64,000 nt of DNA. Source: Phycisphaerales bacterium (GTDB lineage Bacteria > Planctomycetota > Phycisphaerae > Phycisphaerales > SM1A02). A program made the translations under genes and the position numbers. The DNA is taken from assembly GCA_030748575.1 (NCBI GenBank), contig JASMLR010000005.1:62001-126000 (forward strand). Direction: 5' to 3'. Positions 12,123 through 59,044 of the stretch are shown piece by piece. The notes beneath the pieces were generated by a model, which was not told where the DNA came from, made no database searches, and saw only the letters and a list, made by a program, of their open reading frames with translations. Numbering within the stretch: position 1 is the stretch's first letter; every line of letters starts with the position of its first letter.

Positions 12123-13223
12123 ATGCCAGCGGCAGCATCAGGATCGACGAATCAGGCGGGCATGACCTATGCGGCCTCCGGTGTCGACATCGAGGCTGGT
12201 GACCGGCTCGTCGACCTCATCAAGCCAGCGGTCCGCCGTACCCACGGCCAGCGTGTCATGGGCCAGCACGGCGCGTTCGCAGGCATGTTCAGGCTGGACT
12301 TCAACGAGCAGATCTTCCAGAGGAACTACACAGACCCTGTCCTGGTCGCGTGCACCGACGGCGTAGGCACCAAAGTCAAACTTGCGGCGGATCTGGGCAT
12401 TCTTGACACGGTTGGCATCGACTGCGTCGCCATGAACGTCAATGACCTCATTGTGCAGGGTGCCGAACCACTGTTCTTCCTCGACTACCTCGGGCTGCAC
12501 AACCAGGATCCGGAAACCACCGCCCAGATCGTCGAAGGCGTGGCCCGCGGGTGTGAGATTGCCGGCTGCGCTCTGATCGGCGGCGAATGCGCAGAAATGC
12601 CCGACATCTACGCGGAAGGTGACTTCGACATCGCGGGCTTCGCGGTGGGGGTGGTTGAACTGCACCGCGCCGTCGATCCCGTCCGCGCCCGCGCAGGCGA
12701 CATCCTGATCGGCCTGGCGTCCAGCGGGGTACACAGCAACGGGTACAGTCTGGTTCGACGCATTGTGGACAAGCGTTCACTTCGCCTCGACCGCGCCTAC
12801 GCGGCGCTCGGAGACACACCGCTCGGCAAGATTCTGCTGGAACCGACCAGAATCTACGCGCAGCCCATCGTCAAACTGTTGCGGCGGTATCGGGTCAAAC
12901 GTGTCGTCAGTGCCATGGCCCACATCACCGGCGGCGGACTCGAGGGCAATCTTCCCCGTGTCCTCCCGGACAACCTCGACGCAGTCATCGACACCCGGAC
13001 CTGGGAGATCCCCCCGATCTTCACATTCCTCCAGAGCCGCGGCGACGTCGATACGGATGAGATGTACCGCGTCTTCAATATGGGCATCGGATACGTTCTG
13101 GCCGTTCGACCAAGCTTCGCCGACTCAGTTCTGCGTCAGTTGCAGCGATCGGGCGAAACCGCTCGCATCATCGGCAAACTCGCCAAGGGAACCGGGGACG
13201 TACAACTGAAGGGACGATCATGA
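12123..13223 (+). CDS. purM: Phosphoribosylformylglycinamidine cyclo-ligase (AIR synthetase)
   Basis: Closes the imidazole ring of AIR in purine synthesis using ATP. 366 residues from the ATG at 12123, or 353 from the ATG at 12162. Family motifs include [11 protein letters not shown] at the start, [44 protein letters not shown] and [13 protein letters not shown]. The upstream start is preferred because a TACACT box ends 6 nt before it, the leaderless pattern seen elsewhere; the downstream start fits the family length slightly better. The stop overlaps the next gene as ATGA. No other purine genes are nearby. Confidence 0.95.
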
Positions 13224-20251: not shown

Positions 20252-20920
20252 CTAGCGCTTGTACTTGACGCTGCAGCCCCACGCGGGGACCGAGTCCGGC
20301 GTCGGCTGCGCCCCCTCCTTGAGACGTTGCACGGCCTTAAGCACGTAGTTCGTCGCCGTCGCTCGCTTCTCGTTCTGCTGGTCGTTGTCAAAGGCGCCCT
20401 GGTAGCGCAGCACGCCTGCCGCGTCGATGACGAACATGTGCGGCGTCGTCTCGGCCTTGAACGCCCTCCCAACGGTCCCGTCGTAATCGATCAGAATCGG
20501 CACGTCGATCTTCCATTGCGCCTTGGCCTTCTTGTCGCTGTCGATCACCTGCTCCCTGGTGTTCCGCCGCGCCGTGGAGTCGACCACGAGATAGGTGATG
20601 GTCGGATCGATCGCCCGAAGTTGTGAACGCAGCGTGCTGGCCTTCCCTGTTGAGTGGATGGCGTGCCCTGACTGCCGCCCGCTGAACGGGCACGACGCGT
20701 TGAACCACTCAAGCACCACAATCTTCCCGGCATAGTCAGACAGCGCGTGTTGCGTCCCATCGGTATCGGTCAGGGTGAATCCGGGTGCGGGCAGCCCCAC
20801 CGCGGCCTTCTGCGGCGCCGCGGGCGGCGCCTTGGGCTTCGGCGGCGTTGGCGCAGCGGCCATCAGTATGGTGGACAGCGCCGCGCAGAAACTCAGGCTC
20901 AGTCGTCTTGCTGTGATCAT
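20252..20920 (-). CDS. Secreted peroxiredoxin/thioredoxin-fold protein with a single active-site cysteine
   Basis: 222 residues. Signal peptide 1-22, then a Pro/Ala/Lys-rich linker (about residues 23-40) and an AhpC/TSA-like redoxin domain: GLPAPGFTLTDTDG, VVLEWFNASCPFSG and TTPHMFVIDAAGVLRYQGAFD. The active site is NASCPF; the second cysteine of a CxxC motif is missing, so it is more peroxiredoxin-like than thioredoxin-like. It overlaps the upstream DsbD-like gene as ATGA, so the two products probably work together in the periplasm. The substrate is unknown. Confidence 0.82.
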   Translation of the reverse strand: MITARRLSLSFCAALSTILMAAAPTPPKPKAPPAAPQKAAVGLPAPGFTLTDTDGTQHALSDYAGKIVVLEWFNASCPFSGRQSGHAIHSTGKASTLRSQLRAIDPTITYLVVDSTARRNTREQVIDSDKKAKAQWKIDVPILIDYDGTVGRAFKAETTPHMFVIDAAGVLRYQGAFDNDQQNEKRATATNYVLKAVQRLKEGAQPTPDSVPAWGCSVKYKR

Positions 20921-33136: not shown

Positions 33137-33967
33137 TCAGCCCGTCCAGTCCACCGTCAGCCCATCCCAGGCCAGCGCCATCCCCTCGGGCAGGGCGTCA
33201 TCCACCTCCGCGTGCTTGATCTGGTGGGCCATGTGCACGAACCACGTCCGCCTCGCCCCTAACGCGTAGGCCTCTCGAATCGCCTCCTGGGTACTCAGAT
33301 GCGTGCCGTGCGGGCGTTCCCGCAGCATGTCCAGAAAGAGGGTCTCCAGGCCCCCGAGCCGCGCGCGGCTCGCCTCGGGAATCGTCGACACATCGGTACA
33401 CCAGGCCAATGGGAGCGGCCAGTCCGGGCCGTCATCGGCTTCGAACCGGAACCCCAGGATGGGGAGGTTTCCATGCATCAGCCGCAGCGGCTCCACGCGA
33501 AGGCCGAACAGTTCCACTGGCTCACCCGGCGAGAGCGTGTGTGGCTCGACGGCGGCAATGAAGGAGTCGTTCACATTGTGCTGAGGATGGAAGATGTGCC
33601 GGTAGACCCGGCTCAGGTGCTCAAGCGTGTGCGGCTCGGCCCAGATGTCGATGGGCGCCTGTTGGGCGATGTTGAACCGGCGAACCTCGTCGAGCCCGAA
33701 GGTGTGATCGACGTGGTTGTGCGTGAAGAAGATCCCATCGCAGCGGGTGATGCCGGCTCCGAGAACCTGCTGCCGAAGATCCGGCGAGGCGTCGATCAGG
33801 ATCGTCCGCGGCGCCCCTTCGGGATCGGTCCAGCAGACGGCGGCGCTGGTCCGAAGGCGGGTGTCCCGGGGATCGTCCGACGTGCACGTCTGGCAGTCGC
33901 AGCCAATCGCCGGCACGCCCGCGCTGGTGCCGGAGCCAAGTACGATGCAGCGAACATCCGTAATCAT
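33137..33967 (-). CDS. MBL-fold hydrolase, PhnP-like cyclic phosphodiesterase
   Basis: 276 residues. It starts with LGSGTSAGVPAIGCDCQTC, the cysteine-bearing loop of PhnP/beta-CASP-like phosphodiesterases, then FFTHNHVDHTFGLDEVR (metal site), MHGNLPILGFRF and CTDVSTIP. PhnP hydrolyses phosphoribosyl cyclic phosphate in phosphonate use, but no phn genes occur here, so the substrate may be another cyclic nucleotide or phosphodiester. Its ATG overlaps the thiE stop as ATGA, so it is coupled to thiamine phosphate synthase. Confidence 0.87.
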   Translation of the reverse strand: MITDVRCIVLGSGTSAGVPAIGCDCQTCTSDDPRDTRLRTSAAVCWTDPEGAPRTILIDASPDLRQQVLGAGITRCDGIFFTHNHVDHTFGLDEVRRFNIAQQAPIDIWAEPHTLEHLSRVYRHIFHPQHNVNDSFIAAVEPHTLSPGEPVELFGLRVEPLRLMHGNLPILGFRFEADDGPDWPLPLAWCTDVSTIPEASRARLGGLETLFLDMLRERPHGTHLSTQEAIREAYALGARRTWFVHMAHQIKHAEVDDALPEGMALAWDGLTVDWTG

Positions 33968-42076: not shown

Positions 42077-42513
42077 CGGGAATCCCGGCCCTGTCACCTC
42101 CACGCAGAACCGTGGGCCGACGCGTCTTGGCGCCGCTGGTCATCCTTGCGTTTGCAGCTGCCATCACGCTCTGGTCCAGTCCCGGAGCGGAGGAGCAGTC
42201 GCGGATCGCCGCGTTGACCAGCTCGATTGAGCACGTGTGCAACCCCGAGACCGAGCCCCCGGACATGCAGTGGTCGCTCCCTGTCCTCCGGACCATGTTC
42301 GAGCGGCGCGTTTCCGCGTGGTGCCAGGACCGGGCCGCCACCTCCCTGACGGTTGCGCCGCACACTGAACAGGCGGACGTCCTTGTCATCCTTCGTTCGG
42401 CTGTGCCGGTGCTGGAGGTCCGATTCCAGCCGTCGGCTGCCCAGCCGACGGTCATCGAGATCCGCAGCCTTGAATCGGAGACAGCGGCGCAGCCCGGGCC
42501 CGATGGGCGGTAG
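42073..42513 (+). CDS. Small membrane-anchored protein, unrecognised
   Basis: 146 residues. A basic start, then a transmembrane segment (VLAPLVILAFAAAITLW, about 19-35), then a soluble part with two cysteines (EHVCNPETE and SAWCQDR), which may form a disulfide outside the membrane. It is coupled to the coiled-coil gene by an ATGA overlap. No family is recognised. Confidence 0.55.
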   Translation: MTGIPALSPPRRTVGRRVLAPLVILAFAAAITLWSSPGAEEQSRIAALTSSIEHVCNPETEPPDMQWSLPVLRTMFERRVSAWCQDRAATSLTVAPHTEQADVLVILRSAVPVLEVRFQPSAAQPTVIEIRSLESETAAQPGPDGR

Positions 42514-42522
42514 CCTGCCCAC

Positions 42523-43470
42523 ATGGACGTCTGGATCAACGGTGAATTCGTGTCTGATGGCGACGCTCGCGTCTCGGTCTTCGACGCGGGCCTGCAGCAT
42601 GGCATCGGGCTCTTTGAGACCATGGCTGCCAGAAACGGTCGGTGCTTCCGCGTCGGTCAGCATGTCGAGCGGCTGATCGAGTCCGCCCGCCTGCTCCGCC
42701 TGACGGATCGCCTGCACGCCGAGCCCATTGAAACGGCCGTCCAACACGCCATCGACCATGCTGGTGTGCAGGAGGCGAGAGTGCGGCTGACCGTGACGGG
42801 GGGCGACCTCAATGCCCTTCGCAGTACCGGAGCCGGACCGCAGGACCCAACCCTGTTCATCGTCACCCAGCCACCGACGGAGTATCCGGAGACCTTCTTC
42901 TCGCAGGGCGTGGCCGCCACGCTTGCGGCCGGGCGGCTGAACCCGTGGCAGACGGGGTCCGGACACAAGACGCTGAACTACTGGCCCCGCATCGCTGCAC
43001 TTCAGGCCGCGGCCACCGTCGGCGCCGGAGAGGCGTTGTGGCTCACGCCCGACGCCCACGTGGCGAGCGGATCGGTCAGCAACCTCTTCCTGATGTCTGA
43101 TGGGTGTCTGGTCACCCCTCCGGCGCGTGGCGAGCAGGCCCGGGGGGAGTTGATCCCGCCCGTGCTCCCCGGCGTGACCCGCGCCGCCGTCATCGAACTT
43201 GCGGAGGCGGCAGGCCTCCAGGTGCAGCGGCGATTGCCCAGCCTCGATGATGTGATGGACGCAGACGAAGTGTTTCTGACCAACTCGAGTTGGCAGGTTC
43301 TTCCTGTGACCTCGCTGGGGCTCACCGTCCGGGGAGACGATGACGACGCCGAACCAGAGCTTCGCCGGCACCGCATCGGCGAGGGTGAAGTCGGCCCGAC
43401 CACGGCCGACCTTCGGGCTGCCGTGCTGGAGTGCATGGAGCAGGAGACCCGCCAGGACGCACCGGCATGA
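42523..43470 (+). CDS. Class IV aminotransferase / aminodeoxychorismate lyase-like
   Basis: PLP enzyme of the branched-chain aminotransferase/PabC superfamily. 315 residues. The PLP lysine is in SGHKTLNYWPRIAAL (Lys149); the family motifs FDAGLQHGIGLFETM near the start and the substrate loop VASGSVSNLFL are present. It may be 4-amino-4-deoxychorismate lyase (folate), a branched-chain or D-amino acid aminotransferase; sequence alone does not decide. It lies 9 nt after the previous stop. A TAGCCT hexamer before the ATG includes that stop codon and is not counted as a promoter. Confidence 0.83.
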   Translation: MDVWINGEFVSDGDARVSVFDAGLQHGIGLFETMAARNGRCFRVGQHVERLIESARLLRLTDRLHAEPIETAVQHAIDHAGVQEARVRLTVTGGDLNALRSTGAGPQDPTLFIVTQPPTEYPETFFSQGVAATLAAGRLNPWQTGSGHKTLNYWPRIAALQAAATVGAGEALWLTPDAHVASGSVSNLFLMSDGCLVTPPARGEQARGELIPPVLPGVTRAAVIELAEAAGLQVQRRLPSLDDVMDADEVFLTNSSWQVLPVTSLGLTVRGDDDDAEPELRRHRIGEGEVGPTTADLRAAVLECMEQETRQDAPA

Positions 43471-43748
43471 CCAGCGGAGGCGGCAATTGGCGGCCGAGCG
43501 GCATGCCTGGCATGGGCACCGCGTTCCGCGTCGTGCAGGCACGTCCGTCCGGGCCGGGGCGAATCGCGCTGCTGGTGTTCCTGATCATCCTGGCCCTGCC
43601 GCTGCTCGCGCTGGCGATCGTGGCGGGCCTTGTTTCGATGGCAGTATTCCTCGTCCTGGCGGGATGGAACCGCTTGTTCAAACGAGCAACACCGGACTGG
43701 GCGTCGCACGATTCTGAGGGAAGGAAGGGCGTCCGCGTCAAGCGGTGA
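43467..43748 (+). CDS. Small membrane protein, unrecognised
   Basis: 93 residues. A Gly/Arg-rich start, one or two hydrophobic segments (IALLVFLIILALPLLALAIV, then AGLVSMAVFLVLAGW) and a basic tail. It overlaps the aminotransferase stop as ATGA. A membrane anchor is likely; function is unknown. Confidence 0.55.
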   Translation: MTSGGGNWRPSGMPGMGTAFRVVQARPSGPGRIALLVFLIILALPLLALAIVAGLVSMAVFLVLAGWNRLFKRATPDWASHDSEGRKGVRVKR

Positions 43749-47643: not shown

Positions 47644-48741
47644 TCAGGCCGCGAGATCCCAGCCCTCGTCGGCGGGCTCGTCCGGCCACTCGGGGCGTGA
47701 TCGCTTGTGGATTCGGACGATCCGGGAGAGTTGCTCGGCAATCATGGCCCTGAGGACATCGAGGGTGGCGGCGTGCTCGTCGTCAAAGCCCGTGTCAGCA
47801 TCTCGGAAGAGTGCAAACACAGCCATGCACTCGTCGCCATTGTGGCAGGCGAATGAGGCTACCTCAGATCCAGCCAGCTTCTGCATGTTGCCGCCTGCAG
47901 CATTGGCGAACTCGGCCGTGTCGTTGAATTGGACCAGGTCTCGTTCGCTGGACATGGGTTCACAGATGATCCCGCCGAGATCCGTCAACATCGGCATCAG
48001 GTCTTCGTCCTGCCACTGATAGTTGACGTAGGCGCCGACGCCGTACTTGGTATCGCCCTCACGGAGATACACGACGGCGTTGGTTGGGCCAATCCGCTTG
48101 AGGATGTACTCCAGGGACGTCCGCAGCATGTCTTCGACGTCGAGTTCCTGGGACATGATGGCCTTGAACTCACTTGACATGGCGACATCCGACATCTGCG
48201 TTCGCATGGATCGGTAGGCGGAGGCAAGATCACTGCACAGCACGTCCACCTGATCGGACATTTCGTCACGAGCTTCCGACAGTCGCTTGCAGTTCTCAGT
48301 CAACGCTTCAAGGTGGGCATCGCGGCCCCGATGCGCTCGCACGCGGGCCATGATTTGCTCCATGCGTTCCGGGATTCGAGCGCGGTCTTCGGGCAGCGAG
48401 ATCCAGTCAGAGGCGCCCCCTCGGACGGCCTCGACCAACGCCTCAGGCGTTGGTGAGCCGCCGTAGATAATGGCCCGAGCGGATGGAACGGTCGCCTGAA
48501 CATCGCGAATGAGACGAAGGGCTGATGGACTGGTGTCTCCGATCGCCAGTATGTCAGGCGTCATGGTTGTCATCACCCCGATGGCATCTTCATGCGATTC
48601 GACACAATCACAGACGTATCCGAGCGTCTCGAACCGCACTTGAAGCCGCTCACGGTCGGCGCCGCGGGGCCCAACCATCAGGATGCGGCCAAGCGAGGCC
48701 TGGCAGTCCATCTTCGAAGTGTGCTGTTCTAGGGGGTTCAT
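47644..48741 (-). CDS. Degenerate-receiver / GAF-like regulator
   Basis: 365 residues. The first about 120 residues have a response-regulator fold, but the acidic pair is replaced (LMVGPRG), the phosphorylation site reads PDILAIGDTS with Gly at the usual Asp position, and the conserved lysine is missing, so it is a pseudo-receiver. A coiled-coil segment (about 135-185) follows, then a GAF-like domain (about 190-350) with YLREGDTKYGVGAYVNYQW and later CHNGDECMAVFALF. No output domain is visible. The start at 48741 has GGAG 9 nt upstream. It may sense a ligand through the GAF-like part; function is unknown. Confidence 0.68.
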   Translation of the reverse strand: MNPLEQHTSKMDCQASLGRILMVGPRGADRERLQVRFETLGYVCDCVESHEDAIGVMTTMTPDILAIGDTSPSALRLIRDVQATVPSARAIIYGGSPTPEALVEAVRGGASDWISLPEDRARIPERMEQIMARVRAHRGRDAHLEALTENCKRLSEARDEMSDQVDVLCSDLASAYRSMRTQMSDVAMSSEFKAIMSQELDVEDMLRTSLEYILKRIGPTNAVVYLREGDTKYGVGAYVNYQWQDEDLMPMLTDLGGIICEPMSSERDLVQFNDTAEFANAAGGNMQKLAGSEVASFACHNGDECMAVFALFRDADTGFDDEHAATLDVLRAMIAEQLSRIVRIHKRSRPEWPDEPADEGWDLAA

Positions 48742-48959
48742 CGCCAAGCTCCAGTTGTCTGATCCATACCGGGTCCCATGCCCAGCCAAGGCCGGCATCG
48801 ACGCGATTCTGCTCCGGTTTCAGTCGGAGTACCGCACACACAGCACATTTCATGCCTTTGGCGTGGTTAGACCCCTCGCCCGGGTCATCACGCCCACGCC
48901 TTTCTCGTGTGCTCCCAAGGAGATATGAACCCGAAAGAAATTTCACGCTGGGAAGCGCG

Positions 48960-49613
48960 TTATCGGGCCTCAAACAGCCTGACAGCCTCTGGAGGGCGTG
49001 GATAGAGCGGCTCCAGGGTGCCGGGGTCGACGGTTCGCCCGTCGGCAGCCATGGCCTCGGCCGCCTCCAGGCACGCGGTCGGGTCCAGATGGAGAGGGCG
49101 TATGGGCACATCGCCGAGCAGCTCGGCCATGTCTTCCGGGAGGTGGTCATCGGCAATCACCGCCTCACAGCCCCTGATCCGCTCGGCCAGACCAGAGGTG
49201 CCGACCAGACCGGGCTCGCCATCGATCTGCCCGCCCGCTGCAACACGGGTGCACCAGATGGTCCCGCGGCGACTGGAGAGCAGGACGGCGACCGTCGCTT
49301 CAGATCCGGCAGCCGCAACGATGGCAGTCGGTACCGCAACCACCGCGCACCCTGTGGTCAAGGCGAGGGACCGTGCCGTTGAAACAGCGATGCGAAGGCC
49401 GGTGAACCCGCCAGGGCCGATCGACACGCCAACCAGGGACACCTCGCATGGCGTGGCCCCAAGCTCCCGGAAGAGGCGGTCGATCTCCGGCATGAGCCGG
49501 TCGTCGATCCCGGAGGCAGACTCAAGCGGCACGGCCACCACCCGCCCGTCCTCGCCCCGAACCGCAACACCGCCGGCGCGATGAGCCGTCTCGATGGCCA
49601 GATGCACGCTCAC
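48960..49613 (-). CDS. tsaB: tRNA threonylcarbamoyladenosine biosynthesis protein TsaB
   Basis: Part of the complex making t6A at position 37 of ANN-decoding tRNAs. 217 residues. The ASKHA-fold N-terminal half has LAIETAHRAGGVAV, VSIGPGGFTGLRIAVSTARSL and VVAVPTAIV, all typical for TsaB. Partners TsaD, TsaC and TsaE are not in the window. Its ATG overlaps the stop of the phosphoesterase gene as ATGA, so it belongs to the methyltransferase-phosphoesterase-tsaB operon. Confidence 0.92.
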   Translation of the reverse strand: MSVHLAIETAHRAGGVAVRGEDGRVVAVPLESASGIDDRLMPEIDRLFRELGATPCEVSLVGVSIGPGGFTGLRIAVSTARSLALTTGCAVVAVPTAIVAAAGSEATVAVLLSSRRGTIWCTRVAAGGQIDGEPGLVGTSGLAERIRGCEAVIADDHLPEDMAELLGDVPIRPLHLDPTACLEAAEAMAADGRTVDPGTLEPLYPRPPEAVRLFEAR

Positions 49614-50497
49614 CCTGCAATCTCCCGGGCAGGCAACGTCTGGATCGGCCTGACGCTCGACATCAGGGCGTCGACATCGGGCGGGCAGGAGAGATCCAGG
49701 GGCAGCACGGCTCCCGCGTCCTGATCGCTTGCCAGCGCCAGCACATGTGGCCCCATGCGTCGCACGCCGCGGTCAATCTGAACGTGACCAATGACAAAGC
49801 ATGACACGCCCCAGGCCGCGCGAAGTTCATCGATCTGCGCATCGGTGAACCGCCGACCCCAGGTCAACAGGTACGCCCCACCATCCGGTCCACATCGATC
49901 CGCCTCCTCCAGTTGACGATCCAGAACGCCGGGGTCGAAGCGGTTCATGAGTACGGCGTCCGGAAGCGAGTGGCTGCACTGAACGCCGGACTCGGTACGC
50001 ACCACAAGCGGCATGGACCGAAGGAACCCGTCGATCGCCACGCCCACCTGCTCCCAGGATTCGCCAAAGCTCATGGCAAGACCGTCTTCAAACAACTCAA
50101 CGCTGTTGCCTCCCCCCTTCGTGACCCCGACACCCGTCAGTTGTGAATTCTCATGATTCCCAAGGAGCGGATGGACGCGACCGGGGTGCGAGTTCACCAG
50201 CTGGGCCGTTCGAACCAGCATGCGCCAGCTCATGTCGCATCCATGCAGCAGCGTCGGGCCATGGATCAGTTCCTGGAGGAGCAGGTGGTGATCGGGCTCA
50301 TCCAGGCCGGCCGCTGCGATGATGCGTTGGTAGTTCGGAAGGTGGTCGTGCAGGTCGCCGGCGATCAGCAGTGTGCCCCGCTCGGGTAGATGAACCGTGC
50401 ATCCGGATCGGCCGGGTGTGGATCGCAGGGTGGCCGAAGCGCGGCACAGCACGTCAATCACAGCATCGGCGTTCGACCAGTCGAATCCGGTGCTCAT
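49610..50497 (-). CDS. Metallophosphoesterase (Ser/Thr phosphatase-like)
   Basis: 295 residues. Calcineurin-like motifs are IAGDLHDH (47-52), LLGNHENSQ (112-120), CSHSLPDAVL, and VIGHVQIDRG near the end. This PPP-like order suggests a phosphatase of proteins or small molecules. The ATG at 50497 overlaps the methyltransferase stop as ATGA. In this operon it might act on a product of tRNA or nucleotide metabolism, but nothing in the sequence names a substrate. Confidence 0.8.
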   Translation of the reverse strand: MSTGFDWSNADAVIDVLCRASATLRSTPGRSGCTVHLPERGTLLIAGDLHDHLPNYQRIIAAAGLDEPDHHLLLQELIHGPTLLHGCDMSWRMLVRTAQLVNSHPGRVHPLLGNHENSQLTGVGVTKGGGNSVELFEDGLAMSFGESWEQVGVAIDGFLRSMPLVVRTESGVQCSHSLPDAVLMNRFDPGVLDRQLEEADRCGPDGGAYLLTWGRRFTDAQIDELRAAWGVSCFVIGHVQIDRGVRRMGPHVLALASDQDAGAVLPLDLSCPPDVDALMSSVRPIQTLPAREIAG

Positions 50498-51486
50498 GAG
50501 CCACCGGAAGATCGGCGGCTGAAGATCGCCGAGGACTGGCCAGCGGACCCTCCCTTCCGCTTCATGCCGATCTCGGCAATGCGTTCCCACGCGCTCTTCG
50601 CCGTGACTTCAGATTGTTCGATCCCGATCGATCGCCGCTGGTGGGCTCTGGCCACGGTTCCGGTCGTCCCACTGCCGGCGAACGGATCCAGCACCAGATC
50701 TCCCTCGTTTGAGCAGGCGAGGATGACGCGTTCAAGATAGACCTCGGGAATCTGGTTCTGGTGCCCGTGGCGACGCTCCGCATTGTTCCCTTGAATCCGC
50801 CCCCAGTACTTTCCATACCAGACGTCCATCGGAACACGCATGCCCTTGTTGGAGGACTTCTCCATGGTTCGCTTGTCGCCGTAGATGCTGGCCCGGTCCG
50901 ACTGCTCCAACACGGCGTCCGGGTTCCAGGTTCGGTTGTCCGGATCCTTGCAGAAGTAGAGCGCGTGAACCTTGCTCATGATGAACGATGAGTTCCGGCA
51001 CTGGCCGAACCGGAAGTGCCACACGCACCAATTGATCATGACGAGGCCCCGCCGCTTCAGGTGCAGCACGACCTCAGCCGCAGAGTCATCCGGGATGTTC
51101 ACCCAGATGCTTCCGCTCGGGCTCAGCGCCTCGATGCACCCATCCAGCCAGTCGTAGGTGAACCGCTCATAGGCAGCCCGCGTCATGTCGTCGGACCATC
51201 CGTCATACGGAACATCCCAGTTGAACGGGGGGTCGGCAAAGACGAGGTCGACCTCCCCCTTGTCTGGCAGGGCCGCAAGCACATCCCGGCAATCACCGAT
51301 ATACAACCTCGTATCAGGGTCCTGCAGGTGCCACTCCGGCTCCCTGGCGTCACCGGAAGGTTGGTGGGGCTGCACGACATCGCCCATCAGCCTGATGTCC
51401 GCTTCGGCCAGGTCCTTTCTGCTCGATCGGTGCACGCCGATGGCGCCGGATGGACCGGCCTGAGTCGCTGAACGGTTGGTTGCCAT
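50494..51486 (-). CDS. DNA methyltransferase (N4-cytosine/N6-adenine, beta-type order)
   Basis: 330 residues. The catalytic motif IV ADPPFNWDVP (DPPF 85-88) comes before the SAM-binding motif I LDPFAGSGTTG (267-276), the beta-class order. The target-recognition region between them has a histidine/aromatic segment VWHFRFGQCRN. No restriction enzyme is present, so it is an orphan methylase or a site-specific regulator. The ATG at 51486 is chosen; a CATACT box lies 7 nt before it. It heads an operon with a phosphoesterase and tsaB. Confidence 0.87.
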   Translation of the reverse strand: MATNRSATQAGPSGAIGVHRSSRKDLAEADIRLMGDVVQPHQPSGDAREPEWHLQDPDTRLYIGDCRDVLAALPDKGEVDLVFADPPFNWDVPYDGWSDDMTRAAYERFTYDWLDGCIEALSPSGSIWVNIPDDSAAEVVLHLKRRGLVMINWCVWHFRFGQCRNSSFIMSKVHALYFCKDPDNRTWNPDAVLEQSDRASIYGDKRTMEKSSNKGMRVPMDVWYGKYWGRIQGNNAERRHGHQNQIPEVYLERVILACSNEGDLVLDPFAGSGTTGTVARAHQRRSIGIEQSEVTAKSAWERIAEIGMKRKGGSAGQSSAIFSRRSSGGS

Positions 51487-51533
51487 GCCCCCCAGTATGG
51501 CAGGTTCCCAGCGGCGGCGGCTCGGCTGTCGCC

Positions 51534-51539
51534 TACAAT
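51534..51539 (+). promoter_or_regulatory. Leaderless-type -10 box (TACAAT) for TolC-like gene
   Basis: TACAAT ends 8 nt before the GTG at 51548; it is the best -10 match among the leaderless set. Confidence 0.5.
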
Positions 51540-51547
51540 CGACGGCT

Positions 51548-53317
51548 GTGAGAGCAGAACCGACCATCTCAATCGGGCTTGGCATGTGTGGGCTGATCAC
51601 CCTTGGGTGCTCGCCAAGTTTCAATGCCATTGACCAGCACGTCAATCAGCTCCTGATCGACGGCACAAGCAGCGTGAACGCCAGTGCGCCCCCGAGGCCC
51701 GTGGACGAGTGGGCGGACATCAACGCCAGTGAATCGGTCATGAACGAGAAGCACCCATCCACCGTCAATCCACCGGTGGAGGTGATGGAGTGGGCGACGA
51801 CCACCGAAGTTGACGCCACAGAAGTCCTTGATCGACTGGTGTCATATGCATCCGAGGGTGGCCCGGTGCTCACGCTCGACGAAGCATTGAAGTGGGCCTT
51901 TGAGAACGGTCGGGAGTACCGATTCGCCGAGGAGGATTACCTGCTCACGTGTCTCAGTCTGGTGTTGGAACTCCACCTCTGGACCCCACAACTCGCCGAC
52001 ACGGTCGCGATGGAATACCAGCACGAGGACGGTGACAACGACTTTCTCCAGTCGGCTCAAGGAGTCGTCAATACGTTCTCGGCCAGTCAGCGACTCCCGT
52101 GGGGCGGTGAGTTGACCGCTTCTTATGTCGCGACATTCGCCCGCGAGGTGTATGGCGCGGCCTCGGGCCTTTCGGGTTCCGATACAACCCGCGTCGGGCA
52201 GTTCTTTGTTGGCGGGTCGCTTCCACTCCTTCGCGGCGCTGGCATGATTGCCCAGGAAGACCTGATTCAGGCCGAGCGGAATCTTGTGTATGCAGCGCGG
52301 TCATTCGAGCAGTTCAGACGCGACTACTGGGTGCGTGTTGTGCAGGGCTGGTTTGGCCTGCTTGTGCAGCGGCGGCAACTTGATAACGCCATCGAGTCAA
52401 CCACGCTTCTGGAGAAGCTCGCCGAGCGGCAACGAGCACTGTACGACGCCGGCCGCGCGCGCCTGTATGACGCGGCCGAAGCGGAGAATCGTGCCCTCCA
52501 GGAACGCTCTCGGGTGGCCGGGCTTCAGGAGTCCTATCGGCTCGCCGTTGATCGGTTCAAACTGCTGATCAATATGCCGATCGAGAACCCGATCGCCATC
52601 GACCAATACACCATCGCCATCGACCCGCCGGTTGTCGATCTCGACCAGGCTGTGGAAGTCGCCATGCGGCAGCGGCTCGACCTTCAGACAGAGCGAAACC
52701 GACTGGTTGACGACCAGCGGGGCGTCCGCAACGCGCTCAATGGATTGCTCCCGGATCTGGACCTTGCCGGCGAGATGCGTCTTGGGTCCAACGACACCTT
52801 CTACTACGACGCCGTGCTTCCATCCGTCGAGGACATGGATGCCGAGGCGTCCCTGACTCTGGGTCTTCCGCTCGACCGGCAGGCGGAACGCATCGCCGTC
52901 AGGCAAGCTCAGATCGCACTTGAACGTGGACGCAGGGCATTCCGACGGCAGCGGGATGAGGCTGCGATCCAGGTTCGAACCTCAGTCCGGGACATCGACG
53001 CGAACCTGTTCTCGCTCGACATCCAACGCCGCAATGTTGATATCGCTCGAGTCAACATCGAGTCGATCGACGCGGATCCGGACTCCTATACCGTGCTTGA
53101 CCAACTCTCCGCGATCCAATCGCTGCAACAGGCTCAGAACGGCCACGCTCAGGCCTTTCAGAGTGTGCAGGAAGCCATCCTCAAGTACCTCAACACGACG
53201 GGCCAGATGAGGATCAGCAACGACGCCGCATTGGTGCCGCTGCCCGGCATGGTCATTGGATCGACATCATCACTTTCATACCAGCAGACTGTGTCGTCTG
53301 CCGCGGACGTACACTGA
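51548..53317 (+). CDS. TolC-family outer-membrane lipoprotein
   Basis: 589 residues. The GTG start gives a lipoprotein signal (GLGMCGLITLGCSPS, cysteine near residue 21). The body has the TolC/OEP pattern: a linker, then long helices with repeated LTLDEALKWAFENGREYRFAEE and later WFGLLVQRRQLDNAIESTTL, and a second copy LDLQTERNRLVDDQRGVRNAL. TolC forms the outer-membrane channel of efflux or secretion pumps. It is followed 9 bp later by a HlyD-type adaptor. The inner-membrane pump is missing from the locus. Confidence 0.82.
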   Translation: MRAEPTISIGLGMCGLITLGCSPSFNAIDQHVNQLLIDGTSSVNASAPPRPVDEWADINASESVMNEKHPSTVNPPVEVMEWATTTEVDATEVLDRLVSYASEGGPVLTLDEALKWAFENGREYRFAEEDYLLTCLSLVLELHLWTPQLADTVAMEYQHEDGDNDFLQSAQGVVNTFSASQRLPWGGELTASYVATFAREVYGAASGLSGSDTTRVGQFFVGGSLPLLRGAGMIAQEDLIQAERNLVYAARSFEQFRRDYWVRVVQGWFGLLVQRRQLDNAIESTTLLEKLAERQRALYDAGRARLYDAAEAENRALQERSRVAGLQESYRLAVDRFKLLINMPIENPIAIDQYTIAIDPPVVDLDQAVEVAMRQRLDLQTERNRLVDDQRGVRNALNGLLPDLDLAGEMRLGSNDTFYYDAVLPSVEDMDAEASLTLGLPLDRQAERIAVRQAQIALERGRRAFRRQRDEAAIQVRTSVRDIDANLFSLDIQRRNVDIARVNIESIDADPDSYTVLDQLSAIQSLQQAQNGHAQAFQSVQEAILKYLNTTGQMRISNDAALVPLPGMVIGSTSSLSYQQTVSSAADVH

Positions 53318-53326
53318 GCCATCTCC

Positions 53327-54856
53327 ATGCACCGACTTGAGCAACACATCAGACGCGGCGTCAGCACCACCAGCATGATGGTTGGCGCCGGCGCCCTCGC
53401 GATCATCATCATCATCAGCCTGATGGCCGGCGGTGGTGGTTCCGCAGACGACATCGTCTCTGAGACCGACCTGCATGATGTGGTGGCAGGGAACTTTGAA
53501 ATCACGATCCCCGCCTCCGGCGTCCTCGAAGCCAAGGAGATGGTCGAGCTGCGATCCGGCCTTGACGGAACCGCGACCATCATGGAGATCATCCCGGAGG
53601 GCACGTCCGTCACCGAGGGGCAGGTTCTGGTCCGACTGGATGACAAGGATGTTCGGGACCGCATCGAGTCGGCGCAGGAGAAAGTGGTTGAGGCCGAGAA
53701 CCGTGTGGAGACTCGGGCAGCCGAACTGGAGATCGCTCAGAAGGCGCGTGAGTCAAGCCTGGCCAAGGCGGCGGTTGCCATCGACCAGGCCAAGCTGGCC
53801 AAACTCGCGTGGGAAGAGGGCCAGGACGTCACCACGCGCAACCAACTGGCCCTTACCGTTCGAACTGCCGAGAAGGACTTCAAGCGGCTCGAAGAAAAGT
53901 ACGCCAAGTCGGTCGACCTGCGGGCACGGGACTTCATCAGCCAGAATGACCTTGAGCAGGATGAGATCAACATGATCCGCGCCGAGGCCGCCCTCTCCCG
54001 GGCTCGCCTTGAGAAAGAGGTGTACGAGAAGTACACCTACAAGAAGGACAAGCAAGCCAGGGAATCCGATCTCAAGCAGGCAGAAGAGGAGCAGGTGCGG
54101 ATTGACACCCGCACACAGGCAACCGTCAAGAGTTCGACGAGTAATCTTGAAACCGCTCATGCCAACCTGGAGTCACGACGAGAGCGGCTCGTCAAACTTC
54201 AGCAACAACTCGAAGCATGCACTGTTCAGGCGCCATCGCCAGGCATGGTCGTGTATGGGACGACCATCCATGGCGACAGAAGAGGTAATGATGAGTCATT
54301 CCGAGTTGGTTCCAAGGTGTCGCGTAACCAACTCCTGATGGTGCTTCCGAACACTGAGTTCATGATTGCGGTCGTGAAGGTCAATGAAGCGCTCAGTGGG
54401 AGTGTGAAGCCGGGGCAATTAGCCATCCTTCGCATGGATGCCTTCCCTGAGACGATTTTGGATGGCAATGTCATCGCCGTCGGTGTGCTGGCGGAAGATG
54501 GTGGGTGGAGGGACCCAAACCGACGGGAGTACTCGGTCAGGCTCTCCATCGACAATCCTGACGGGCTGCAACTCAAGCCATCCATGCGATGCACGGCTGA
54601 GATTCAAGTTGATGAGGTTTCTGACGTACTGCATGTGCCTGTGCAGGCTGTTCACCGATCAGGACGATCGACGATCGTCTACACGATGGATGATGGGCTC
54701 TTCAGGCCGACACCGGTCACGCTTGGGCGGTCCAGTTCGTTGTATGTCGAAGTTCTTGATGGGCTCACGCCCGGCGCTCAGGTGCTTCTTCGTGACCCAC
54801 CGCCCGGCACCGCCATTGATCTGGATCCGGAACAGGAATCTGTCTCCAACGGATAA
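53327..54856 (+). CDS. HlyD/RND-type periplasmic adaptor protein
   Basis: 509 residues. One N-terminal membrane anchor (MMVGAGALAIIIIISLMAGG, about 17-36), a lipoyl half (VELRSGLDGTATIMEIIPEG, TEGQVLVRLDD), a long helical hairpin (about 130-290), the second lipoyl half (CTVQAPSPGMVVY) and beta-barrel segments. It would bridge an inner-membrane transporter and the TolC-like protein encoded just before. No transporter gene follows; ubiX converges only 1 bp away. Confidence 0.85.
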   Translation: MHRLEQHIRRGVSTTSMMVGAGALAIIIIISLMAGGGGSADDIVSETDLHDVVAGNFEITIPASGVLEAKEMVELRSGLDGTATIMEIIPEGTSVTEGQVLVRLDDKDVRDRIESAQEKVVEAENRVETRAAELEIAQKARESSLAKAAVAIDQAKLAKLAWEEGQDVTTRNQLALTVRTAEKDFKRLEEKYAKSVDLRARDFISQNDLEQDEINMIRAEAALSRARLEKEVYEKYTYKKDKQARESDLKQAEEEQVRIDTRTQATVKSSTSNLETAHANLESRRERLVKLQQQLEACTVQAPSPGMVVYGTTIHGDRRGNDESFRVGSKVSRNQLLMVLPNTEFMIAVVKVNEALSGSVKPGQLAILRMDAFPETILDGNVIAVGVLAEDGGWRDPNRREYSVRLSIDNPDGLQLKPSMRCTAEIQVDEVSDVLHVPVQAVHRSGRSTIVYTMDDGLFRPTPVTLGRSSSLYVEVLDGLTPGAQVLLRDPPPGTAIDLDPEQESVSNG

Positions 54857-57811: not shown

Positions 57812-59044
57812 TCAAGCCACCGCGACCCACACGAAGAAGCCGAGGACCGCGGCCATGACGGCCCGCCCGAGCCATGTGGAGGCGAGTTGGCCGCACCAGG
57901 ATCGGCGGAGCATGAGCAGGAGTACCACGGCGAGCAGCGGAAGAAAGTACGCGCCAGTCACGGTGTACAGCAACTGGACGGTCTCGAATCGCATGGTGGC
58001 CTGCAGAATTGGCGCCAGTGCAATGCCGATCAGGCACCATCGCGCGACCGTGGTTCGCTCAAGCGTGTCGGGTGAGAGTGGGGGCCGTCCCATGCCGCCC
58101 CGAATCACATCTGCAAAGATCATCGGAACCGACTGCCAGACGCCAAGCATGCTGCTGACGATGGCCGCCCACCCTCCAAAGAGGAAGGCCCACCTCGACC
58201 ATGCGCCCAGTTCCGCCCCAAGCGCATCAGCGATGGATGTGAGCAGGACCACACCCGACCCATCCTGAGAAGGAATGCCCGAGGCGATGACGACCATGGC
58301 CACGCCGAAGACCGTAGTCATGAGGTAGCCGGCGATCAGGTCAATTCGACACAGTCGAATGTCCGACTCGTTGCGTCTTCCCTGTTGAGAGAGCCAGTAG
58401 CCATAGCAGAGCATCGTCACGGTCCCCCCGACGCCGCCCACCAGACCGATCGTCCACGCCCGGCCTCCCTCCACATCTGGAATCGTGGGCTTGATCAACC
58501 CTGTGGCCACTGATGTGGCATCAACGTCAACCAGCACCGCAGTGAGTACGACAACCGCAACCATGATCAGGATGCCCACGGCCATACATCGCTCGAACAC
58601 GCGGAACCCGCCCCGCCACACAAGTGCCAGGCACGCCAGCGACCACACCGTTCCCCACACAATCTTCCCGGCTGTCGCGCCCAGAGGAAGTGGCACCATG
58701 GCCTGGGTGGCAGCGCCCGCGGCGCTGATCAGCGCCCCGCCGACGGCCCAGGTCCAGGGGATCAGGTACAGCAGAAACGCCCACAGCACCCACCGTCCAA
58801 GATGTGTTCCGACACCCGCCACAAGCGTCTGCCCGGATGCCACCTGCCACCGAGCGATCCCCTCTGTCAGCACATACTTCATCACGGCGCCAAGCAGCAC
58901 GGCCCAGAGAATCGCCGTTCCGAGTCTGGCGCCGGCCAGGCCGGCCGTCGCGAGATCACCCGCGCCGACACCGGTGGCGGCGATCAGGAGGCCTGGTCCG
59001 AACAACGCCAGAAGGCCCCGCCGAGCGGTTGGCTCCCTGGTCAC
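57812..59044 (-). CDS. Nramp-family transporter-like membrane protein
   Basis: 410 residues with about 11 transmembrane segments. The first helix has GPGLLIAATGVGAGDLATA, the place of the metal-binding DPGN motif in true Nramp proteins; here it is GAGD, so metal specificity may differ or be lost. The GQTL motif of Nramp helices is present. Magnesium, manganese or amino-acid-like transport cannot be told apart. Its ATG overlaps the thiolase stop as ATGA, so it is coupled to fatty-acid or ketone-body metabolism, an unexplained pairing. Confidence 0.75.
   Translation of the reverse strand: MTREPTARRGLLALFGPGLLIAATGVGAGDLATAGLAGARLGTAILWAVLLGAVMKYVLTEGIARWQVASGQTLVAGVGTHLGRWVLWAFLLYLIPWTWAVGGALISAAGAATQAMVPLPLGATAGKIVWGTVWSLACLALVWRGGFRVFERCMAVGILIMVAVVVLTAVLVDVDATSVATGLIKPTIPDVEGGRAWTIGLVGGVGGTVTMLCYGYWLSQQGRRNESDIRLCRIDLIAGYLMTTVFGVAMVVIASGIPSQDGSGVVLLTSIADALGAELGAWSRWAFLFGGWAAIVSSMLGVWQSVPMIFADVIRGGMGRPPLSPDTLERTTVARWCLIGIALAPILQATMRFETVQLLYTVTGAYFLPLLAVVLLLMLRRSWCGQLASTWLGRAVMAAVLGFFVWVAVA

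Follow-up and report, generated by a model that had tools for sequence, protein, structure and literature searches.

How does a DNA methyltransferase come to share overlapping reading frames with a protein of tRNA t6A biosynthesis, and does this arrangement say anything about a connection between the two modifications? The genes in question lie in a stretch of 64,000 nucleotides (hereafter, the window) from a Phycisphaerales bacterium, whose genome is 2.38 Mb in 85 contigs and 97% complete. As proposed in an earlier reading of the letters without database searches (the sequence-only reading), three genes are present here on the minus strand, in the order methyltransferase, phosphoesterase, TsaB. 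They encode a beta-class DNA methyltransferase of 330 amino acids (50494..51486), a metallophosphoesterase of 295 amino acids that is PPP-like by its predicted fold (49610..50497), and TsaB, the t6A biosynthesis dimerization subunit, of 217 amino acids with a GTG start (48960..49613). The sequence-only reading described ATGA coupling throughout. Both overlaps are indeed four bases long, but only the first, between the methyltransferase stop and the phosphoesterase start (50494..50497), reads ATGA; the second, between the phosphoesterase stop and the TsaB start (49610..49613), reads GTGA. Directly 3' of the TsaB stop, a hairpin scan places a terminator-like hairpin with a T-rich tail (48944..48959, minus strand), for which only the position is suggestive, the scan having returned 2 such hits against 1.7 in shuffled sequence. 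The scan for sigma-70-like promoters returned 0 hits against 0.5 expected. A four-base overlap is by itself ordinary in the window: among open reading frames of at least 200 amino acids, taken mechanically rather than from curated genes, four or more further pairs on a common strand share exactly four bases (13220-13223, 20917-20920, 33964-33967 and 59041-59044). The non-trivial part is the persistence of the overlaps across relatives.

The methyltransferase matches PF01555 at 141.7 bits, against a cut-off of 26.7 (E 4.2e-41), and its catalytic motifs stand in the beta-class order, with motif IV (DPPF, residues 85-88) ahead of motif I (DPFAGSGTTG, residues 267-276). Across 32 sequences from several families, DPPF is invariant, motif I is largely so, and the region between them contains many invariant residues (SDR...Y.D.RT..K....G.R.PMDVWYG...GR.QGN..ER). 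Because this presumed DNA-reading stretch has so many invariant residues, the DNA target is probably conserved. When motif IV begins with Asp, adenine is favoured over cytosine, and judging from this motif the target base is probably N6-adenine. Searched as a profile, the methyltransferase finds family members at E 1e-136 or better, members of family f2 at 1e-148 or better, and its best match outside the order at 1e-72; at E 1e-40, 27 of 246 genomes of the phylum have a match. The window's genome encodes one PF01555 protein and one PF02384 protein, and a genome-wide search for PF00145 and PF02086 gave no match.

Among characterized enzymes, the closest solved structures by sequence are CcrM, M.RsrI and M.MboIIA (E 4e-23 to 4e-22). 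CcrM, the cell-cycle adenine methyltransferase that recognizes GANTC, is likewise beta-class and aligns over residues 57-306 (6pbd), with its last 100 or so residues falling outside the alignment. The window protein is not assigned as CcrM, as its 104.3 bits fall far below the equivalog cut-off of 830 (NF050803). Its best NCBIfam match is the adenine methyltransferase PRK11524, which we take to be YhdJ, at 121 bits and short of the cut-off of 292. M.RsrI and M.MboIIA belong to restriction-modification systems; unlike them, the window methyltransferase has no recognized restriction gene beside it. Searches of the neighbours (OEP, HlyD, weak-GAF regulator, DnaE and a flavoprotein) recognized neither a restriction enzyme nor another defence family, in agreement with the claim of the sequence-only reading that no restriction enzyme is present. 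The direct neighbours of the cluster in the window are the OEP gene and a gene for a regulator with GAF and response-regulator matches below threshold (the weak-GAF regulator, 47644..48798, minus strand, downstream of TsaB), with HlyD and DnaE further out. Within the window, the methyltransferase is thus an orphan in the sense of having no adjacent cognate restriction gene. The OEP (outer-membrane efflux) and HlyD-type genes are divergent from the cluster (51476-54856) and start near the methyltransferase start; the OEP reading frame as listed overlaps the methyltransferase, and GTG at 51548 is its likelier start. The open reading frame at 42094-43542 gave no match to a Pfam family.

TsaB matches TIGR03725 at 102.6 bits (cut-off 69.3) over residues 5-206 of 217, matches TsaB structures, and differs from TsaB (YeaZ) only in its gene neighbours. 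The middle protein scores 20.0 bits against PF00149, just below the cut-off of 21.5, and searches of NCBIfam, PADLOC and PHROGs gave no match to its family. Against the PDB, the sequence alone found nothing up to E 1, and a profile gave weak matches to rdgC (E 0.002) and PP5 (0.02-0.06). The predicted structure (mean pLDDT 93.6, pTM 0.92) is closest to PPP Ser/Thr phosphatases in Foldseek (E down to 3e-13), and PP1, PP2A, PP5 and calcineurin each align with the model over 245-259 residues at VIA Z of about 25. The PPP assignment therefore comes from the predicted fold, not from sequence matches. The sequence-only reading had suggested that this protein might connect nucleic acid modification with a cyclic or phosphorylated metabolite; nothing ties a protein that is PPP-like by fold to t6A, and the suggestion finds no support.

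The PPP family is marked by the motifs GDxHG, GDxVDRG and GNHE. The window phosphoesterase has the conserved motifs GDLHD, GNHE, SHSLP, WGR and GH; it has GDLH, GNHE, HS and GH in common with PPP phosphatases, in the same order and at 12-18% identity in the rows shown. The first and third family motifs are thus present in near form. The second is absent, and at its usual place the window protein has QELIH and all 29 aligned sequences from across the phylum have [QH]ExxH. These 29 comprise five of the 23 sets of the three adjoining genes described below, 10 of 12 loci from other families of the order, and 14 from other orders or classes, so that 24 come from other families (L213-L222 and L225-L238). 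Glu76 and His79 are also invariant in the phosphoesterases of all 23 sets, and a weak profile alignment pairs Glu76 with what would be the usual motif II Asp. PPP enzymes normally use GDxVDRG to bind the second metal and assist catalysis. With this motif replaced, the second metal site would have to be rebuilt, so the fold gives no guide to the substrate. The family was found in 55 of 294 genomes of the phylum, 22 from the same class (the window's own genome included) and 33 from other classes, and those genomes that were listed as lacking it all belong to other classes. It reaches further across the phylum than the close orthologues of the methyltransferase do.

The sequence-only reading had proposed conservation of the triplet in related genomes as its own check. 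Among 80 related methyltransferase loci from named genomes (78 planctomycete, mostly MAGs of Phycisphaerales or Phycisphaerae, and two, L114 and L159, titled only as bacterium), the contiguous triplet occurs in 23; L133 duplicates L124 from a single isolate, L135 is counted as a triplet with a 0.47-kb gap, and six rows at contig ends could not be judged. Junctions were compared in 23 sets, namely the window and 22 loci, leaving out the duplicate L133 and L122, which has 3.5 kb between the genes. With start codons picked by script, such that single distances may err (an alternative GTG start in G012 gives -4), the methyltransferase-phosphoesterase distance is -4 in 14 sets, -1 in four, +3 or +5 in two, +23 in two and +474 in one. 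The phosphoesterase-TsaB distance is -4 in 14 sets, another overlap in six, and positive in three. In the window's own genome and 60 relatives, the triplet is present in 10 of 61 (G000, G001, G003, G005, G006, G007, G008, G012, G015 and G026), counting G005, in which a contig end cuts the methyltransferase. The phosphoesterase and TsaB genes adjoin more widely. By hand count, both are present in 30 genomes of the window's family, adjoining in 23 and lying 1.7 kb apart in one more; none of 24 genomes from other families of the order has them side by side. Several of these pairs (e.g. G010, G013, G019 and G033) have no methyltransferase next door.

A larger sample of 132 genomes of the family, each at least 85% complete, separates the presence of the genes from their linkage. 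A search at E 1e-60 recovered an orthologue of the methyltransferase from 68 of them, and the phosphoesterase turned up in 122. Every one of the 68 methyltransferase carriers also has the phosphoesterase, the 10 genomes without the phosphoesterase also lack the methyltransferase, and 54 have the phosphoesterase without the methyltransferase. Since no orthologue was found in 64 of the 132, including 15 of one genus (g246), the methyltransferase is dispensable in the family. We also considered that it might be a core gene of the order, and rejected this on the same count and on families f5 and f6, which hold only a more distant relative. The methyltransferase and phosphoesterase genes abut in 23 of the 68 carriers, from six genera. 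In the remaining carriers they are separated by less than 0.7 kb (two), share a strand no more than 9 kb apart (three), are far apart on one contig (three), or are on different contigs (37, a count that includes the split triplet of G005 and some genomes left undecided by fragmented assemblies). Order and strand are kept in G020, G031 and G384 with 3.5-7.1 kb in between; the interval in L122 holds other open reading frames, one of which was searched and had no Pfam match. The check thus gave a divided answer: the triplet recurs in several genera, with the overlaps kept where the triplet is kept, but the genes are scattered in most other carriers. The linkage is confined to part of one Phycisphaerales family, and elsewhere the genes are mostly apart.

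What surrounds the triplet bears on its history. Clustering of neighbouring open reading frames produced many antisense-frame clusters in this GC-rich DNA, and four clusters were used: upp and HTH_17, with one member each tested by Pfam, and the weak-GAF regulator and DnaE, named after the window genes. Each of the 23 triplet loci has a relative of the weak-GAF regulator 3' of TsaB, in 21 cases followed by a convergent DnaE-cluster gene; in 10 loci an HTH_17-cluster gene stands between TsaB and the regulator relative. On the other side, 27 of 69 readable rows have an upp-like gene (uracil phosphoribosyltransferase) just upstream of the methyltransferase. This adjacency occurs on both sides of the divide between triplet and non-triplet loci and changes 11 times or more over the tree, and the upp-methyltransferase pair looks older than the triplet. 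In the window's own genome upp sits elsewhere (L224), away from the methyltransferase. There (L224:667-2439, G000:C22) it is convergent to the gene for a 590-residue protein with a match to the N6 methylase family PF02384, a candidate, on the strength of that match, for a second and different methyltransferase.

A quick maximum-likelihood tree was made from the 80 methyltransferase rows, with 24 scored as triplet and 49 as non-triplet, and six undecided rows and one 'near' row left out. The triplet state changes twice on this tree, which fits one origin and one loss or, equally, two gains, on a weakly supported backbone. Across the 23 sets, the pairwise distances of the three proteins correlate (r 0.84, 0.76 and 0.85; 0 of 2000 permutations in each case), as expected if they have been inherited together. 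Median identity is 68% for the methyltransferase, 44% for the phosphoesterase and 38% for TsaB.

We consider it probable that the cluster is a vertically inherited operon, kept in part of one family, that combines an orphan regulatory methyltransferase, a PPP-like phosphohydrolase and TsaB. In such an operon, the methyltransferase would mark DNA throughout the genome, in an epigenetic or regulatory role rather than one in restriction, and a PPP-like phosphohydrolase of a planctomycete subfamily would be made together with TsaB from the same mRNA. The stop/start overlaps would couple translation, and the methyltransferase would thus be produced in step with housekeeping genes. As for its origin, an older upp-methyltransferase pair may have come to adjoin an older phosphoesterase-TsaB pair. 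Alternatively, the cluster may be purely an accident of position: loss of the intervening DNA would have brought two older gene pairs together, with no significance for co-expression or coupling. In favour of an accident, most relatives and the other families of the order have the genes apart, the window is not short of four-base overlaps, and some loci carry other reading frames between the genes. However, the order and tight overlap have been kept across 23 sets, in which identities fall as low as 24% for TsaB and 35% for the phosphoesterase, and we regard an accident as unlikely, if still the most serious competitor to the operon reading. More doubtful is that the methyltransferase and phosphoesterase form a functional pair, in which the phosphoesterase would act, for example, on the methyltransferase itself, on a protein that reads its mark or on phosphorylated nucleic acid, with TsaB as a bystander. 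The co-occurrence described above, 68 of 68 carriers and 10 of 10 genomes lacking both, speaks for such a pair as raw counts uncorrected for phylogeny, but the phosphoesterase is nearly universal in the family, stands alone in 54 genomes and extends more widely across the phylum.

Similarly doubtful is that the methyltransferase is left over from a restriction-modification system that has lost its other half, or that it serves as a protective methylase in conflict with phages. In PADLOC, type II methyltransferases take the first four places among its matches, ahead of an orphan-methyltransferase model in fifth, and phages carry relatives of it (PHROG 67). Yet the neighbours include no recognized restriction or defence family (type II nucleases being too diverse to exclude genome-wide), and the protein is strongly conserved and diverges in step with housekeeping genes. 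A dedicated module that couples DNA methylation, phospho-signalling and tRNA t6A modification is very improbable: the overlapping order is conserved in six genera, but in all 24 genomes from the order's other families TsaB is separated from both partners, and it is known to act in t6A synthesis in its own right (TIGR03725). An operon does not imply a biochemical link between methylation and t6A, and our data do not support one. Hardly more probable is a reading in which a planctomycete PPP-like phosphatase whose second metal motif has been rebuilt would work with an order-specific orphan methyltransferase, for instance as a regulator of that enzyme or of a protein that reads its mark, and co-translation with TsaB would tie the mark to translation capacity and growth. 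Under the operon reading as we prefer it, specialist attention is best directed to the mark of the methyltransferase and to the unusual PPP-like family. With a median identity of 68%, compared with about 40% for its partners, the methyltransferase qualifies as a candidate for epigenetic regulation beyond the proteobacterial cases that have been studied well, and the PPP-like family with [QH]ExxH, given its occurrence in most genomes of the family and well beyond it, is a clear target for enzymology.

A methyltransferase target may leave a trace in base composition. GANTC, for example, is under-represented in Caulobacter, a carrier of CcrM. We compared observed and expected counts of 4-6-mers in pooled sequence from carriers (464 kb, nine genomes) and non-carriers (400 kb, seven genomes), and then 21 chosen patterns genome by genome, none of which convincingly separates the two groups. 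AGCT is depleted in the pooled data but not genome by genome (p 0.11), with the non-carriers G009 and G024 equally depleted, and was set aside, as was GTNAC (p 0.02), a tiny effect in one of 21 patterns. GANTC is flat and at its expected frequency (p 0.21), with no avoidance in the nine carrier genomes (log2 observed/expected -0.13 to 0.13). A literature search by listings and passages returned nothing on DNA methylation in Phycisphaerales, and PMC9516812, PMC6329791 and PMC9426551 contain no mention of Phycisphaer, nor do the passages found in them give a motif for Phycisphaerales. Separately, ACGT is almost absent from G023 (L200-L202), with a two-strand count of 4, or 2 sites, in 60 kb (log2 observed/expected -5.7), and is also low in G009 (L171-L175, -2.9) and G013 (L189, -2.3). 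This scarcity suggests strong avoidance, perhaps imposed by a restriction system.
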